From the NCBI GenBank assembly GCA_020073015.1, contig JAIQFZ010000033.1, positions 1 through 35,200 of the forward strand: 35,200 nt of DNA, written 5' to 3'. A model generated the notes under the pieces. That model was not told where the DNA came from. It worked only from the letters and a program-made list of their open reading frames with translations, and did not search any database. Numbering within the stretch: the first letter of the stretch is position 1; each line of letters opens with the position of its first letter. The translations under genes were made by a program, and so were the position numbers. Source of the DNA: Terriglobia bacterium. Its GTDB lineage: Bacteria; Acidobacteriota; Terriglobia; Terriglobales; Acidobacteriaceae. Of this stretch, positions 21,656 through 34,045 are shown in pieces.

Positions 21656-22063
21656 CTAGACAGCCCAGTTCTGGATCTTCAGACCCCGCACCCGCCGGAA
21701 TTCGCTCTCATTGTTTGTGACCAGTGTCAACCCGGTAACCACGGCATGCGCAGCGATCCAGAGATCGTTGTTGCCGATCATCTGGCGTTTTGATTCCAAC
21801 TCCGCTCGAATCGATCCGTACGCTTCGGCCGCCGTTTCAGGCAACGAGAGCGCGGGCAGCCAATGCACCAGCTCACGCAGCCTCTCGAGCGCCGCAACCC
21901 GTTGCGCACTCTTGGCTGCTCCATAGAGCAGCTCGCCGTAGGTAATGACCGAGAGCGCGGCTTCCCCAGGTCTGAGCTTGCGGAAGCGCCGCAAAACCTC
22001 CTCAGGCCTCTTTTGCCGGATGTAAATACAGATGTTCGTGTCCAGCAGGTAGCGCGGCTCCAT
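21656..22063 (-). CDS. vapC: VapC-type PIN-domain toxin (module 1)
   Basis: The protein has 135 residues, typical for VapC. PIN-domain acidic residues are Asp8 (YLLDTNICIY), Glu44 (SVITYGELLYG) and Asp100 (GNNDLWIAAHA), with TNNESEF near the end. This layout matches the VapC branch that cleaves initiator tRNA(fMet). Toxins of this type are Mg-dependent RNases blocked by the cognate VapB. Its ATG overlaps the vapB stop by 1 nt (TAATG), showing translational coupling. This module lies apart from the repeat-linked array further right. Confidence 0.9.
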   Translation of the reverse strand: MEPRYLLDTNICIYIRQKRPEEVLRRFRKLRPGEAALSVITYGELLYGAAKSAQRVAALERLRELVHWLPALSLPETAAEAYGSIRAELESKRQMIGNNDLWIAAHAVVTGLTLVTNNESEFRRVRGLKIQNWAV

Positions 22064-22293
22064 TACAGTCTCTTTCGTTTCTGCGGTTGATCCTTCTCGC
22101 GCGCAACCACGGCGAGATCCTCGGGTAACCCCGCCAGCAGATCGAACGCCCGCACCATGTCTCCATCCTTCTCCCGCAGGACGATCTCATCTCCCCGCCG
22201 AAAGATCTCCACTTCCTTGCTCTTCAGTCGAAATTGCTTTGGCAGCCGGACTGCCTGACTGTTCCCCGAACGAAAAACCCGCGCCGTGCCCAT
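22063..22293 (-). CDS. vapB: VapB antitoxin, AbrB/MazE-type swapped-hairpin fold (module 1)
   Basis: The protein has 76 residues. The N-terminus MGTARVFRSGNSQAVRLPKQFRL is the classic AbrB-type DNA-binding hairpin of VapB partners, followed by EVEIFRRGDEIVLRE. The lysine- and arginine-rich tail (KDQPQKRKRL) should wrap the toxin. GGGAGG lies 8 nt before ATG 22293; the longer open frame is not supported. The gene overlaps vapC by 1 nt, and a palindromic operator lies just upstream. Confidence 0.88.
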   Translation of the reverse strand: MGTARVFRSGNSQAVRLPKQFRLKSKEVEIFRRGDEIVLREKDGDMVRAFDLLAGLPEDLAVVAREKDQPQKRKRL

Positions 22294-22311
22294 GCACCCA
22301 CCTCCCAACAA

Positions 22312-26736: not shown

Positions 26737-26981
26737 CATCGATCGAAGAGGGTCAGATTCGGTTGGGCGTCCCTGTGCACCCCGGGGTGCACACACTTGC
26801 CTGTGCAACCAGGTTGCACAAACGTGAGCCTCAGGACCCTGCTGCAGTCAAGAACCAATGCCGGCGATGATGGCTGCATTGGTTGCAGCCAGGGTCGGGC
26901 AAGGGCCGAATACAAATCGAGCATGGCAGGCGCTTGCGCACACACGGATACTAGACGAACATACGGCGAAATATCAAGAGT
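26737..26981 (-). repeat. TA-array element, copy A
   Basis: Intergenic element found six times in 26.7-34.05 kb, always in the same orientation. This copy has a perfect 20-nt palindrome TGTGCACCCCGGGGTGCACA (26774-26793) and TGTGCAACCAGGTTGCACA (26802-26820), then a TGGCTGCA/TGCAGCCA hairpin (26871-26891). It ends with a minus-strand promoter. The first palindrome lies 75 nt before fitA. Strand is given as the direction of the embedded promoter. Confidence 0.85.
26948..26977 (-). promoter_or_regulatory. Promoter in element A
   Basis: On the minus strand TTGATA (26972-26977), an 18-nt spacer and TAGTAT (26948-26953). The spacer holds the TTCGCC-like direct repeat shared by all copies. It would read through the element into fitA with a leader of about 240 nt. 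Confidence 0.5.
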
Positions 26982-27895: not shown

Positions 27896-28175
27896 CCTCT
27901 GCTCGGTAATGCGAATCTTTGATCCAGATGATCCGGCGATCAATGCTGGGGTGATATCCGGTTTGTCGTCCCTGTGCACTCAGGGTGCACAAACCTGCCT
28001 GTGCAACCAGGTTGCACAAACGCGAGCCTCAGTACCCTGTCCAGTCAGGGACCAATACCGACGATGACGGGGCATTGGTGGCAGCCAGGCCCGGGCAAAG
28101 GCCGAAATACAAATCGAAAATGGCGGCCGTTTGCGCACACGCGGATACTAGGCGAACATACGGCGAATATCAATA
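27896..28175 (-). repeat. TA-array element, copy B
   Basis: Same element as copy A. It begins with the GATCC/GATCAA-rich segment shared with copies C, D and E. Palindromes: TGTGCACTCAGGGTGCACA (27973-27991, one T-G pair) and TGTGCAACCAGGTTGCACA (28000-28018, perfect). The third hairpin is damaged here. It ends with a minus-strand promoter at 28145-28173. Confidence 0.85.
28145..28173 (-). promoter_or_regulatory. Promoter in element B
   Basis: On the minus strand TTGATA (28168-28173), a 17-nt spacer with two TTCGCC units, and TAGTAT (28145-28150). It points through the element to module 3. Confidence 0.55.
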
Positions 28176-28269
28176 GGCCTCCTGCGACTTTTCGCGATCA
28201 CGGGTACCGTTGAGAACGAAAGCGAATAGCCAGCATCGCGTTGCCCACAAGCGAGAGTCTGTTCCGAAT

Positions 28270-29279: not shown

Positions 29280-29512
29280 ATCAGGCGAATCTCGATCCAA
29301 GCGATCACGTGCGATCAAAGCGGAGCTCGGGATTCGATTGGCCGTCCCTGTGCACCCGGGGTGCACAAACATCCCTGTGCAACCAGGTTGCACAAACTTG
29401 GAGCTCGGTATCCTGATTCACTCAAGAACCCATGCCGACGATGATAGCCAGATTCGGATCCGCACACTTCATGGTAGGCGAATATAAAGCGAATGTCAAG
29501 AGTTCTGGCGCA
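29280..29512 (-). repeat. TA-array element, copy C (internally deleted)
   Basis: Both palindromes are perfect: TGTGCACCCGGGGTGCACA (29349-29367) and TGTGCAACCAGGTTGCACA (29376-29394). The distance from palindrome 2 to the promoter is 77 nt instead of the 127-129 nt of the other copies, because the third-hairpin region is missing. The promoter at 29471-29499 is kept. Confidence 0.82.
29471..29499 (-). promoter_or_regulatory. Promoter in element C
   Basis: On the minus strand a perfect TTGACA (29494-29499), a 17-nt spacer and TACCAT (29471-29476). It points to module 4, with a leader of about 240 nt. Confidence 0.5.
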
Positions 29513-29580
29513 CTGGTCGACGAAGGTTGATGAGCTGACTGTCGGCAGCGAGCTGTCCGGTCACACGCAGAGCGCCGGGT

Positions 29581-29673: not shown

Positions 29674-30096
29674 CTAAATGGTCTCTATTGTCAGGGTTGG
29701 AAACGCTAGCTTGTACAAGCGTTCATCCAGAGTCAGCAGCCGGTAGCCCCGAGTTTGAGCGTGAGCCCCGATCAGGAAGTCGGCGAGAATGCGCCGGCTG
29801 CCTGCGTCACGCTGTTTACGCCGGCGTTCCGCGTAGCCTTGGAACGCCCGTCCGGCAGAACGCCACGCTGCTTCGCCCAAATCCCAATCAATCGCAATTC
29901 CCGTCTCTTCGAGAAATGAACTCACGAAGGTCTCGGTCCGGCCTGGAGCCGCTATCAACTCCGCAAAGACCGGTGCCGACACCACCAAGCTTCCCCGATT
30001 GAATGCTGTCTCCAGAGCAGTCTGGGCGGCCAAATTGAGGGTCGGATCTTTGTCCCACAATGCGACCACAACATTGGTATCAATGGCCGTCGTCAT
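29674..30096 (-). CDS. vapC: PIN-domain toxin, VapC-like (module 5)
   Basis: The protein has 140 residues. Acidic PIN residues are Asp6 (MTTAIDTNVVVALWD), Glu46 (APVFAELIAAPGR), Asp106 (RRILADFLIGAHA) and Asp124 (LLTLDERLYK). ATG 30096 overlaps the antitoxin stop by 4 nt (ATGA), so the upstream in-frame codons are not used. The RRILADFLIGAHA and LTLDERLY motifs fit the VapC group paired with AbrB antitoxins. Confidence 0.9.
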   Translation of the reverse strand: MTTAIDTNVVVALWDKDPTLNLAAQTALETAFNRGSLVVSAPVFAELIAAPGRTETFVSSFLEETGIAIDWDLGEAAWRSAGRAFQGYAERRRKQRDAGSRRILADFLIGAHAQTRGYRLLTLDERLYKLAFPTLTIETI

Positions 30097-30332
30097 TGTC
30101 CGCGCAGCTCTCGCAGCCAATGGCGAATGCTTTTTCTGCCCGACCCAATCTCCGGATTACCGATACCACGGTATTTCGAGAAGGTGCTCTTGCTGCGGAC
30201 GGGCCGGACGCGAATACCCTTTGCATCGCTCTCAAACAACAGGCGGTCCCCCGCCCGCACGCCCAGGATGCGCCGTACTTCACGGGGCACGGTGATTTGC
30301 CCTTTGCTCGTGATCCTCGCCTGCTTCTGCAT
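30093..30332 (-). CDS. vapB: AbrB/SpoVT-type antitoxin (module 5)
   Basis: The protein has 79 residues. QARITSKGQITVPREVRRILGVRAGDRLLFE is the AbrB/SpoVT swapped-hairpin domain. The C-terminus (STFSKYRGIGNPEIGSGRKSIRHWLRELRG) is the toxin-binding tail. ATG 30332 is preferred to TTG 30338 because AGAGG lies 6 nt upstream. Two identical 9-bp direct repeats lie just before it. Confidence 0.88.
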   Translation of the reverse strand: MQKQARITSKGQITVPREVRRILGVRAGDRLLFESDAKGIRVRPVRSKSTFSKYRGIGNPEIGSGRKSIRHWLRELRGQ

Positions 30333-30344
30333 TTCCAACCTCTG

Positions 30345-30372
30345 TTCCTTACTTTAGCACATTTTCCTTACT
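30345..30372 (-). promoter_or_regulatory. Probable operator and extended -10 of module 5
   Basis: TTCCTTACT (plus strand) occurs at 30345-30353 and 30364-30372, 19 bp apart. An extended -10 (TGCTAAAGT on the minus strand, 30351-30359) lies between and overlaps them. No -35 is clear. Confidence 0.45.
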
Positions 30373-30424
30373 CGAGCGGGGGGTGACCTGTGTAACCATC
30401 GAGTTCTCAGGAATTCTCCGGAGT

Positions 30425-30735
30425 CTGCTCTAGCACCGGGAGTGTGCAGCAGCGAACGCAGATCCAGACGATCCAGGGATCAAAGCAGGGCGTTGGATTC
30501 GGTTTGTTCAGCGTTGTGCACTCAGGGTGCACAAACTTCCCTGTGCAGCCAGGTTGCACAAACTTGGGCCTGAGTACCCTGCTTCAGTTAAGAACCAACG
30601 CCCGCGCTAATGGCTGCATTGGATTGCCGCCAAGACGAGACAAAGGCCGAACACAAACCGAGGCCGGCGGGCGCTTGCGCACGCACCAATCCTAGGCGAA
30701 TAGACGGCGAAACATCAAGAGAAATGAGGCCGCGG
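30425..30735 (-). repeat. TA-array element, copy D
   Basis: Palindromes: TGTGCACTCAGGGTGCACA (30515-30533, one T-G pair) and TGTGCAGCCAGGTTGCACA (30542-30560, one G-T pair). The third hairpin has one mismatch. The leading edge CCGGGAGTGTGCA and the trailing GAAATGAGGC.GCGGAA segment are shared with copy E, so D and E are the longest copies. Confidence 0.85.
30689..30718 (-). promoter_or_regulatory. Promoter in element D
   Basis: On the minus strand TTGATG (30713-30718), an 18-nt spacer with the TTCGCC repeat, and TAGGAT (30689-30694). It is the weakest of the six. It points to module 5. Confidence 0.42.
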
Positions 30736-30806
30736 AATCGGCGCGGGGCGATGCCATGACGAAGGTCAGATTCGCCGGCCCCAGGCTGGGTACGCTGGAG
30801 TTTTCG

Positions 30807-31036
30807 CTAGTTCGGCTTGTGCTTACGATAGTAGGCAGTGAGTTGATCGAGCGCAAATTCAACGAACTCGGCGCTACTCACTCGTACCAGGTTACTCTTC
30901 CATTCTCCCACGTAACCTGACCACAGGGTGCCTCTCGCGTCATCGAACACTTCGGGGCGCAGTCTGTATCTGACGGCTGCCGGCCCGCGCCCACCTGGGA
31001 ACGTTTTATTCTCCGGCAGGCCTACTTTAAGCACTA
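30807..31036 (-). pseudogene. 3' half of a gene split by the IS5-group element
   Basis: Codes for the last ~76 residues of the disrupted protein, from the CTA codon at the insertion site onward: VLKVGLPENKTFPGG, RYRLRPEVFDDARGTLW, AEFVEFALDQLTAYYRKHK. It reads on in frame from the 5' half at 32192-32426 when the IS and one target copy are removed. On its own it is fused to IS sequence and lacks a proper start. Confidence 0.8.
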
Positions 31037-32191
31037 GGAGACTCTGATTAAGCTCTCTGCTTTCCACAGCCCGTCAAGTTAGAGTGGCGAGAAATGAAGC
31101 AGAGGACACTGGCGATGATGACCGGCTTTGAGCAGTACACGAAGAAGACGCGGCGAGCGCAGTTTCTGGAGGAGATGGAGCAGGTGGTGCCGTGGCGCGA
31201 GTTGTGCGCGCTGGTGGAGCCGGATTATCCCAAGGCTGGAAGCGGTCGGCCGCCGGTAGGCGTGGAGCGGATGCTGCGGACTTATTTTTTGCAGCAGTGG
31301 TTTAACCTGTCGGACCCGGCGGTGGAGGAGGCGCTGTACGACTCGGCGGTGATGCGGCAGTTCGTGGGCATTGATTTGGGCTGTGAGCCAGTGCCGGACG
31401 AGACCACGGTGTGCAAGTTCCGGCACTTGCTGGAAGAACACCAATTGGGTGAACGGATGCTGGGGCGGGTGAACCTGCACCTGCAAGCCCAGGGGGTGCG
31501 AATCACGACCGGCACGATCGTGGACGCGACCATCCTGCACGCACCCAGTTCGACCAAGAACCGGGAGCAGCAGCGCGATCCGGAGATGCACCAGACGAAG
31601 AAGGGGAAGCAATGGTACTTCGGGATGAAGGCGCACGTGGGGGTGGATAGCAAGACCAAGATCATCCACACGGCGGTGGCGACGGCGGCCAACGTAGCTG
31701 ACTCGGCGGTGCTGCCCGATCTACTGCACGGCGAAGAAACCCGAGTGTGGGGCGATCAGGCCTATCGCGGACAGACCCAGGTGATCCGGGAGTGCGCGCC
31801 CCAGGCCCAGGACTGCACCCATCGGCGCTACCGCTACAAGGATCGCGTCGACGAAGTGGAGCGGGCGAAGAACCGGACGAAGTCGACAGTGCGGTCCAAG
31901 GTGGAGCACGTGTTTGGGGTGATGAAGCTGAAGTTCGGATTTGTGAAGCTGCGCTACCGAGGACTGAAGAAGAATGCCAACCAGCTGTTTGCGGTGTGCG
32001 CGCTGGTGAACCTGTACTTGGTGCGGAAAAAACTGCTGCTTCTGATGCCGGCTTGACCTAGCAGCAAAGGTTGCCGATCACGGGCGAGCCGCCGAAGCGA
32101 CCCGGCGACCGGGGAAAAACCGAATCCGAACGCTTGCACTGGCATGGCTAAACAGCTACGGCCCCAAAGAACGGGCTTATTCAGAGTTTCC
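31037..32191 (+). mobile_element. Complete IS5-group insertion sequence (1155 bp)
   Basis: Imperfect terminal inverted repeats: left GGAGACTCTGATTAAGCTC, right GGAAACTCTGAATAAGCCC (16 of 19 match). Flanks are CTA on the left (31034-31036) and CTAG on the right (32192-32195). That fits a 3-bp CTA duplication, or a 4-bp CTAG one if a G was lost at the left end. CTAG suits the YTAR target preference of IS5 elements. It carries one intact transposase gene. It is inserted in the opposite direction to the split gene. Confidence 0.88.
31094..32056 (+). CDS. IS5-group transposase, intact
   Basis: The protein has 320 residues and aligns along its length with the Escherichia coli IS5 transposase as I know it: RRAQFLEEMEQVVPW, PKAGSGRPPVGVERMLR, APSSTKNREQQRDPEMHQTK, GKQWYFGMKAHVGVD. 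The DDE triad appears as Asp144 (TIVDATILHAP), Asp221 (VWGDQAYRG) and Glu271 (SKVEHVFGVMK). The C-terminal KFGFVKLRYRGLKKNANQL is typical. The ribosome site before ATG 31094 is weak. The gene seems functional, so the insertion may be recent. Confidence 0.94.
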   Translation: MKQRTLAMMTGFEQYTKKTRRAQFLEEMEQVVPWRELCALVEPDYPKAGSGRPPVGVERMLRTYFLQQWFNLSDPAVEEALYDSAVMRQFVGIDLGCEPVPDETTVCKFRHLLEEHQLGERMLGRVNLHLQAQGVRITTGTIVDATILHAPSSTKNREQQRDPEMHQTKKGKQWYFGMKAHVGVDSKTKIIHTAVATAANVADSAVLPDLLHGEETRVWGDQAYRGQTQVIRECAPQAQDCTHRRYRYKDRVDEVERAKNRTKSTVRSKVEHVFGVMKLKFGFVKLRYRGLKKNANQLFAVCALVNLYLVRKKLLLLMPA

Positions 32192-32426
32192 CTAGATCGT
32201 ACTCTGTAGGGTCATCAAACCGCGGGTCGAATTCATGGTGCAGTTGGTAGGGGCCGAGCTCAATGCGAGAGCCCTGAATGACGAACTTAGGCAAGTTGCC
32301 GCGACTAGCGTTCCTTTCTTCAACACGTTCTCTCAATAAACGTTCCAGCGTGTCGTACTCCTCTTTCTTTTTTTGCGCGTGCTCTTGCGCCCGGTTCCTG
32401 AGTTGTTCCCGCACGTTGTCGGACAT
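32192..32426 (-). pseudogene. 5' half of a gene split by the IS5-group element
   Basis: Codes for the first 78 residues: a charged helical start (MSDNVREQLRNRAQEHAQKKKEEYDTL, probably coiled coil), then LPKFVIQGSRIELGPYQLHHEF and DDPTEYDL. After that the frame enters the IS and stops within it (GKL). GAGGAG lies 9 nt before ATG 32426. Joined to 30807-31036 it gives an intact 153-residue protein that I do not recognise. It lies downstream of the phd-vapC module, same strand. Confidence 0.82.
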
Positions 32427-32629
32427 TGAATTTCGCTCCTCACCCTCCGGCAGCAGTCTTTTGTTTCGCGCGCTCGTTTTCTTTGCCGGGGCCGCCTAAT
32501 TCTGGAACACCCGATCCCAAATTCGAACCGGCGCAGGCGGCTTTTTCGTTACGTTTGTAATGGCTGTTTGCGCGTTAACGCGGGCAGGGCGCGTTCTGCA
32601 AAATCGTCGAGCCCGCCGTTCAGGTTTTC

Positions 32630-33022
32630 TTACCAAATGGTGGGAAGAGCCCGTGACCGTCGGATCGCGCGGTCCGCGGTGAGCAGCGACAGTCCTTCGA
32701 CCAGCGCGGTGGCCGCGATGATGCGGTCCGCTGGATCCTTTGGAAATGCTGCTGGAAGCCCGAGGGCGCGCACGCAGGCGCGGCCGCTGATCGGTAGGAC
32801 GGTGAAGCGCACCTCGACCTCGCGCAGGAAAGATTCGAGGCTGATGTCGAGACGGATGCGTCCTTTGCTCGAGAGCGTGGCCAACTCCAGGAGAGTGATG
32901 TCGGAGATGGCCAGCCCGTCCCCGCTCCCACGCGCATCGTCGATGGCCGCTCTTGCGTTCCGGGAAAGCTGAGATTGGTCAAGCGCCAGCCAGACGACCA
33001 CATGCGTGTCGACCAGAATCAC
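32630..33022 (-). CDS. vapC: PIN-domain toxin, VapC-like (module 6)
   Basis: The protein has 130 residues from GTG 33022, which overlaps the Phd stop by 4 nt (GTGA). An upstream GTG at 33037 is possible but adds antitoxin-overlap residues. Acidic residues are Asp5 (ILVDTHVVVWLAL), Glu46 (ITLLELATLS), Asp99 (FPKDPADRIIAATA) and Asp117 (LLTADRAIR). The DTHVVVWLALD and DPADRIIAATA motifs are those of the VapC group that normally pairs with Phd antitoxins. Confidence 0.9.
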   Translation of the reverse strand: MILVDTHVVVWLALDQSQLSRNARAAIDDARGSGDGLAISDITLLELATLSSKGRIRLDISLESFLREVEVRFTVLPISGRACVRALGLPAAFPKDPADRIIAATALVEGLSLLTADRAIRRSRALPTIW

Positions 33023-33252
33023 CTGAGCTTCCCCCACTCTTCCTTCGAAATCGCAGGGGAAACGACATCGCCGGTAATCGCACCCTTGCCCGCGAGAAAA
33101 TTGTAGATGTCGTCGGCATCGTTGTCGGCCGGGATCAGCTTCGCAACTGGTTTGCCACGTTTTGTGATCACCACGCTCTCGCGCTTCGCCTGCACTTCAT
33201 CCATAACCGCAAGACAATGGATCTTAAAAGAACCGGCAGCCATTTTCTTCAT
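33019..33252 (-). CDS. Phd/YefM-type antitoxin (module 6)
   Basis: The protein has 77 residues. MKKMAAGSFKIHCLAVMDEVQAKRESVVITKRGKPVAKLIP is a clear Phd/YefM domain. ATG 33252 is preferred because GGAG lies 7 nt upstream; ATG 33276 overlaps the -10 box and cannot be the start of this transcript. The C-terminus (DDIYNFLAGKGAITGDV) is the toxin-binding part. Confidence 0.87.
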   Translation of the reverse strand: MKKMAAGSFKIHCLAVMDEVQAKRESVVITKRGKPVAKLIPADNDADDIYNFLAGKGAITGDVVSPAISKEEWGKLR

Positions 33253-33274
33253 TGGGAGCTCCATAATCATGGTC

Positions 33275-33280
33275 ATTATA
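33275..33280 (-). promoter_or_regulatory. -10 box and likely operator of module 6
   Basis: TATAAT on the minus strand, 22 nt before ATG 33252. It is flanked by ACCATGGT and ACCATG repeats, which may be the Phd operator. No good -35 was found. Confidence 0.45.
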
Positions 33281-33317
33281 CCATGGTCGTAACGTCACTC
33301 GACACGCAGCATCGGGA

Positions 33318-33622
33318 TTTGCTCAGAACCGGGAGTGTGCACGCATCGAATCTCGATCCCGGACGATCCCCCGATCAACGGGGCAGGGATTCGGTTTGCC
33401 GTCCCTGTGCACCCGGGGTGCACAAACTTGCTTGTGCAATCAGGTTGCACAAACGTGAAGCTCAGTTCCCTGCTCCGATCAAGGTCCAATGCCCGCGACG
33501 ATGGCTGCATTGATTGCAGCCAGGGTCGGGTAAGGGCCGAATACAAATCGAGCATGGCAGGCGTTTGCGCACGGGCCAATACTAGGCGAACAGACGGCGA
33601 ATGTCAATAGAAATGAGGCAGC
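33318..33622 (-). repeat. TA-array element, copy E
   Basis: Palindromes: TGTGCACCCGGGGTGCACA (33406-33424, perfect) and TGTGCAATCAGGTTGCACA (33433-33451, one T-G pair). Third hairpin TGGCTGCA/TGCAGCCA (33502-33522) is perfect. With copy A it is the best kept copy. Module 6 lies downstream of its promoter. Confidence 0.86.
33579..33607 (-). promoter_or_regulatory. Promoter in element E
   Basis: On the minus strand TTGACA (33602-33607), a 17-nt spacer with two TTCGCC-type units, and TAGTAT (33579-33584). It is the best match to sigma70 consensus of the six. It points to module 6. Confidence 0.58.
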
Positions 33623-33862: not shown

Positions 33863-34045
33863 ATTCGTTGTGCACTCAGGGTACACAAACGTGAACCTCA
33901 GTCCCCTGTTCCCGTCCAAGACCAATGCCGACGATGGTGGCTACATTGGTTGCAGCCAGGCCCGGACAAGGGCCGAATGCAGATCGAGAGTGCCGAGCGT
34001 CTGCGCACGTAATCATGATAGGCGAATATAAGGGGAATATCAAGA
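33863..34045 (-). repeat. TA-array element, copy F (one palindrome only)
   Basis: Only one palindrome is left, TGTGCACTCAGGGTACACA (33869-33887), with a mismatch. Its left arm resembles palindrome 1, and the sequence after it resembles what follows palindrome 2. That suggests deletion by recombination between the two. The distance to the promoter (128 nt) is kept. The third hairpin (33938-33958) has one mismatch. Confidence 0.78.
34015..34043 (-). promoter_or_regulatory. Promoter in element F
   Basis: On the minus strand TTGATA (34038-34043), a 17-nt spacer and TATCAT (34015-34020). No gene lies directly downstream; the next one is module 6 beyond element E. Confidence 0.5.

Follow-up and report, generated by a model that had tools for sequence, protein, structure and literature searches.

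Insertion sequences (ISs) of the IS5 group carry short terminal inverted repeats that begin with GG. In one published study (PMC10359306), YTAR is given as the target of IS5, and inactivation of costly genes by ISs is described for cas genes. The window analyzed here (35,200 nucleotides, the whole of contig C199) comes from a draft Terriglobia genome of 245 contigs and 5.5 Mb. In this window, an IS5-group element has very probably inserted at CTAG after codon 78 of a 153-codon gene on the minus strand, duplicating the target and splitting the gene in two.

The IS5-group element and its target

The element occupies 1155 bp (31037–32191, plus strand) and is delimited by inverted ends and target copies around a transposase gene. 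The left end GGAGACTCTGATTAAGC (31037–31053, plus strand) and the right end GGAAACTCTGAATAAGC (32175–32191, minus strand) agree at 15 of 17 positions and start with GG, as is usual in the IS5 group. The open transposase frame (31094–32056, plus strand, 320 aa) lies on the strand opposite to the split gene. Its product was assigned to the IS5 family of transposases by NCBIfam NF033581 transpos_IS5_4 (E-value = 7.9e-103, 343.7 bits against a cut-off of 140); it also matched Pfam DDE_Tnp_1 (E-value = 2.8e-28), and residues 1–303 were 93% identical to the copy in a related locus (L051).

Both flanks of the element show a readable CTAG, at 31034–31037 on the left and at 32192–32195 on the right, as judged from the sequence and by comparison with the ends of related copies. 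On the left, the G of CTAG doubles as the first base of the element, since the expected CTAGGG lacks one G: the left junction is CTA|GGAGACTC in place of CTAG|GGAGACTC. Relatives of the element were examined for their targets in 12 loci, namely four partial copies from the same genome and 8 of the 22 outside places listed. At least one end was readable in 11 of these loci, which gave 12 readable ends (10 left and 2 right), and in all 12 a YTAR tetranucleotide (CTAG, TTAG or TTAA) stands directly against the terminal GG. The complete copy in L051 is flanked by CTAG on both sides. A 4-bp target accounts for this most simply, with either the loss of one G from the run of Gs at the left junction or an assembly error there; a loss from the run is probable, and the inferred empty site is the same in either case. 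The ends had been called intact in the first-pass annotation. The inverted ends and the open transposase agree with this description, but the left junction, one G short of the YTAR-against-GG arrangement in relatives, means that the ends are not perfectly intact.

A search of the same genome revealed no second full-length copy, and the four partial copies (128–136 bases) are 88–89% identical to the window element. The insertion had been proposed to be recent, which these results did not bear out; open halves would fit a young insertion without proving one. Of the four partial copies (L016, L017, L018 and L019 on contigs C241, C104, C217 and C101), three start a contig and the fourth lies close to the end of one, which indicates that ISs of this type interrupt the assembly. 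Among related genomes, 17 of 150, the source genome included, matched the element at E-values up to 1e-20; as two candidates per genome were scored, copies may be more numerous. The best matches outside the source genome were 91% identical over bases 1–1069 (another genus of the same family) and 85% identical over the full length (same genus).

Two halves of one gene

The N-terminal half (32193–32426, minus strand) is an open frame of 78 codons that begins with ATG at 32426–32424 and ends in ...DDPTEYDL; a Shine-Dalgarno-like GAGGAG (32436–32441, minus strand) was read nine bases before the ATG. The C-terminal half (30807–31034, minus strand) is open over 75 codons plus a stop and begins with VLKVGLPENK.... 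The two halves share a single minus-strand frame with the IS between them. The element and one target copy together amount to 1158 bp or 386 codons, with remainder 0 on division by 3, and the figure is the same for CTA and for CTAG as the target. The sequence, the coordinates and the joint from ...DDPTEYDL to VLKVGLPENK... were as first described, and the proposal of a gene split by an IS5-group element and restorable in frame is borne out by the removal of 1158 bp and by the coding-like character of both halves.

At present, the frame of the N-terminal half runs over 32181–32426 (minus strand), with the 78 codons followed by three from the IS (GKL) and a stop. The frame of the C-terminal half covers 30807–31067 (minus strand), and its first possible start is a GTG at 31067, inside the IS. 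This frame has further GTG codons, one at the junction (31034) and others at 30950, 30911 and 30881, which could start a shorter separate frame. Translation from the ATG would now end at 81 aa, after three codons of the element, and the C-terminal half would have no normal start, so the protein would be lost.

Codon usage was scored with a model trained on nine genes of the window. In the expected frame, the scores were +0.101 and +0.096 bits per codon for the N- and C-terminal half, respectively, while the other five frames were negative in both halves (at most −0.068 and −0.073). Of the 295 open intergenic windows (out of 3500 windows on both strands), not one reached 0.096, the best being −0.013, and stop-free shuffles reached the observed score in 2 of 2000 cases for the N-terminal half and in 0 of 2000 for the C-terminal half. 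Four accepted toxin-antitoxin (TA) genes next door scored 0.12–0.31, and both halves are a little lower. Codon usage is better evidence than the open frame alone, which is modest: the frame would be kept by chance alone in one case out of three, and of 1750 overlapping 75-codon windows taken from five intergenic stretches on the minus strand of the array, 138 (8%) were open. In AlphaFold2 single-sequence models, the N-terminal half forms a helix over residues 2–40 (ten-residue block means of pLDDT 83–95) followed by weak strands, and the C-terminal half is an alpha/beta structure of low confidence (mean pLDDT 61.8). From these low-confidence models, the product probably had a helix of 40 residues at its start and a small alpha/beta part after it.

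The two halves were searched separately for homologs. No match to either half was detected in plasmids (tblastn), phages or genome contigs, and none to the C-terminal half in viral contigs. One viral-contig match to the N-terminal half ends in FDDPTEYDI; the phage frame otherwise resembles neither half, and the match was rejected because FDDPTEYDI is close to the pattern that selected it. For the C-terminal half, outside matches were found in 3 of 24 genomes of the genus (E-values up to 0.1), in 2 of 397 of the order and 2 of 290 of the class (E-value threshold 0.01), and in 2 of 396 of the phylum (E-values up to 0.01, outside the source genome); the last two (0.005 and 0.008) both lie in frames of about 1000 aa. 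For the N-terminal half, outside matches were found in 10 of 200 genomes of the family (E-values up to 0.1) and in 2 of 399 of the class (E-value threshold 0.01). Since the E-values are per genome and the genome draws overlap (totals include the source genome), these numbers are about what chance gives. Eleven outside loci (L003, L004 and L006–L014) were re-aligned and frames were read in two more (L020 and L022); the re-alignment left out L021, L039, L049, L096, L097 and an N-terminal match in genome G421, which had no locus.

The C-terminal half had no Pfam or NCBIfam match at E-values up to 1. The N-terminal half had no NCBIfam match and three Pfam matches below cut-off, none of them to a TA family, the best being DUF1635 (E-value = 8.6e-4; 19.7 bits, where the cut-off is 27.2). 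A PDB sequence search at E-values up to 1 gave no match for the N-terminal half, and the best for the C-terminal half had an E-value of 0.083; the best PHROGs matches were at 0.066 (N-terminal) and 0.22 (C-terminal). No PADLOC-DB family matched either half at E-values up to 1, so neither is recognized as known anti-phage defence, and Foldseek with the C-terminal model returned no match at E-values up to 0.001. In the first-pass annotation, an uninterrupted homolog was to confirm the split, and homologs ending naturally at DDPTEYDL, or the lack of any homolog across the junction, were to speak against it. The search gave nothing credible: neither a spanning homolog nor one ending at DDPTEYDL was found in the collections searched, and the lack of the former is an empty result, as neither half had homologs. 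No independent protein therefore shows that the halves belong together. The best explanation is that the split gene is an orphan at the present search depth, an accessory gene of this strain or its close kin.

Two other accounts of the split bear on these results. The shared frame may have arisen by chance, if the IS fell into non-coding DNA or separates a short N-terminal gene, or one ending just past codon 78, from a different frame. The lack of a spanning homolog in the collections searched, the 8% of intergenic windows that are open, the one-in-three odds of keeping frame and the internal GTG codons of the C-terminal frame would all agree with this account; however, the coding score is positive solely in the shared frame out of six, in both halves, and none of the 295 open intergenic windows comes up to it, which makes a chance frame unlikely. 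That the junction or the placement of the IS is an artefact of the draft assembly is suggested by the 245 contigs, by the breaks at related IS copies and by the base missing at the left junction. We consider an artefact very unlikely, because the window element is full-length, has target copies and preserves the frame, and differs by 11–12% from the partial copies over their 128–136 bases, a divergence that allows it to be assembled as a unique sequence. The gene is really split, and the locus is an everyday insertion of an IS into an orphan gene. As a clean and well-delimited IS disruption it is of use for annotation, where the two short frames should be entered as one interrupted gene.

Setting among toxin-antitoxin pairs

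The upstream neighbor is a Phd/YefM antitoxin with a PIN-domain (VapC-like) toxin (32630–33276, minus strand; PF02604 and PF01850), which forms a separate unit; about 200 bp lie between the PIN stop (32630) and the ATG of the split gene (32426). The split gene is followed by a copy of a repeat, here called D (30477–30721, plus strand), which precedes an AbrB/MazE-like and PIN pair (29674–30338, by Pfam). Of 24 genomes drawn from the genus, 16, the source genome included, hold relatives of the Phd/PIN toxin at E-values up to 1e-20, and 10 of the 18 outside places listed were examined. In the five loci with the highest protein identity (L099, L100, L101, L102 and L115), DNA similarity stops between window positions 32672 and 32623, a span reaching from 42 bases short of the PIN stop to 7 bases beyond it; L100 starts within the PIN gene and is therefore seen on the downstream side only. 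The stretch beyond the IS (30300–31036) had no match in the 10 loci, and tblastn of both halves against them gave two short matches (E-values 0.17 and 0.86), neither credible. Because the similarity ends at the pair and the halves have no credible match, the pair travels without the split gene.

In sister genomes, the Phd/PIN pair (window 32623–33295) is found in different surroundings, as if moved as a unit. A very similar VapB/VapC-like pair (EPRYLLDTNICIYIRQKRPEE...) was seen by eye in the frame lists at several places of the source genome and in one sister genome (window 21656–22300; L042, 7640–8433; L043, 2795–3735; L076, 770–1722).

Repeat D is about 240 bp long, and its first 110 bases form an imperfect hairpin that contains two palindromes resembling TGTGCAnCCnGGnTGCACAAAC. 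The window holds six copies (26739–26980, 27936–28176, 29311–29520, 30477–30721, 33371–33610 and 33864–34045), five of which lie just upstream of a TA pair. The source genome gave 16 matches, and D was present in 7 of 101 genomes searched, the source genome included and all of the same genus, with at most seven candidates per genome scored; Rfam had no match to it. Copies of D were also recorded at loci L040–L044, and contig C241, which bears one of the partial IS5 copies, carries D elements as well. In a sister genome (G580), some copies stand, by eye, beside genes that are not TA-like, so adjoining D is not enough to make a gene cargo. The idea of an integron-like cassette array in this region was set aside, D being a dispersed repeat that also stands beside such genes.

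The best outside match to the C-terminal half is a ParE toxin in a genome of the same genus (G570; 30% identity over residues 21–74, E-value = 4.7e-4), whose frame is confirmed as ParE by Pfam (E-value = 1.6e-14). This match is weak, as its E-value corresponds to about 0.01 expected over 24 genomes and about 0.2 over 397. A reading of the split gene as ParE was rejected: the match covers residues 21–74 of the C-terminal half only, that half has no Pfam match at E-values up to 1, and the N-terminal half has none to ParE.

The first-pass annotation took the split gene for another cargo gene of the TA array. Its position between two TA pairs on the same strand as its neighbors agrees with such a role, whether as cargo or as a functional third part, e.g., the third gene of a Phd/PIN operon, and the ParE match in one genome points the same way. 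However, the Phd/PIN pair recurs in sister genomes with similarity ending at the pair, none of the 10 loci examined has a credible match to either half, the gap of about 200 bp separates the gene from the PIN stop, the C-terminal half is without a Pfam match and the ParE similarity is weak; with D also found beside other genes, the cargo proposal was not supported, and a part in the array is improbable. Neither Pfam nor NCBIfam places the split gene in a type II TA family, and no conserved linkage to a TA pair was found in the 10 of 18 outside places. The gene could also represent a family of small proteins (an N-terminal helix and an alpha/beta part) that is undescribed and seen here for the first time, in the TA-island accessory pool of the genus, with loss of the gene having been selected; we hold this to be quite unlikely. 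The split gene lies among TA pairs and is not part of the neighboring pair, and a place within a TA array does not prove membership of the array.

Comparison with described elements

The window element resembles the IS5 group of the IS5 family in its length (about 1.2 kb for the group), in its single transposase, in its inverted ends starting with GG and in the YTAR target of its relatives, and differs in its left junction, one G short of CTAG|GG. IS5 transposases on plasmids of Granulicella tundricola, first among the plasmid matches listed, are 63.7% identical over 95% of the transposase; these belong to a different element, carried on plasmids. This match is in keeping with the acidobacterial origin suggested by the general look of the proteins, although it is no proof of it. 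If an intact homolog of the split gene turns up, the function of the gene could be asked. With the inactivation of cas genes described in PMC10359306, the locus has one feature in common, namely that an IS splits a coding frame.
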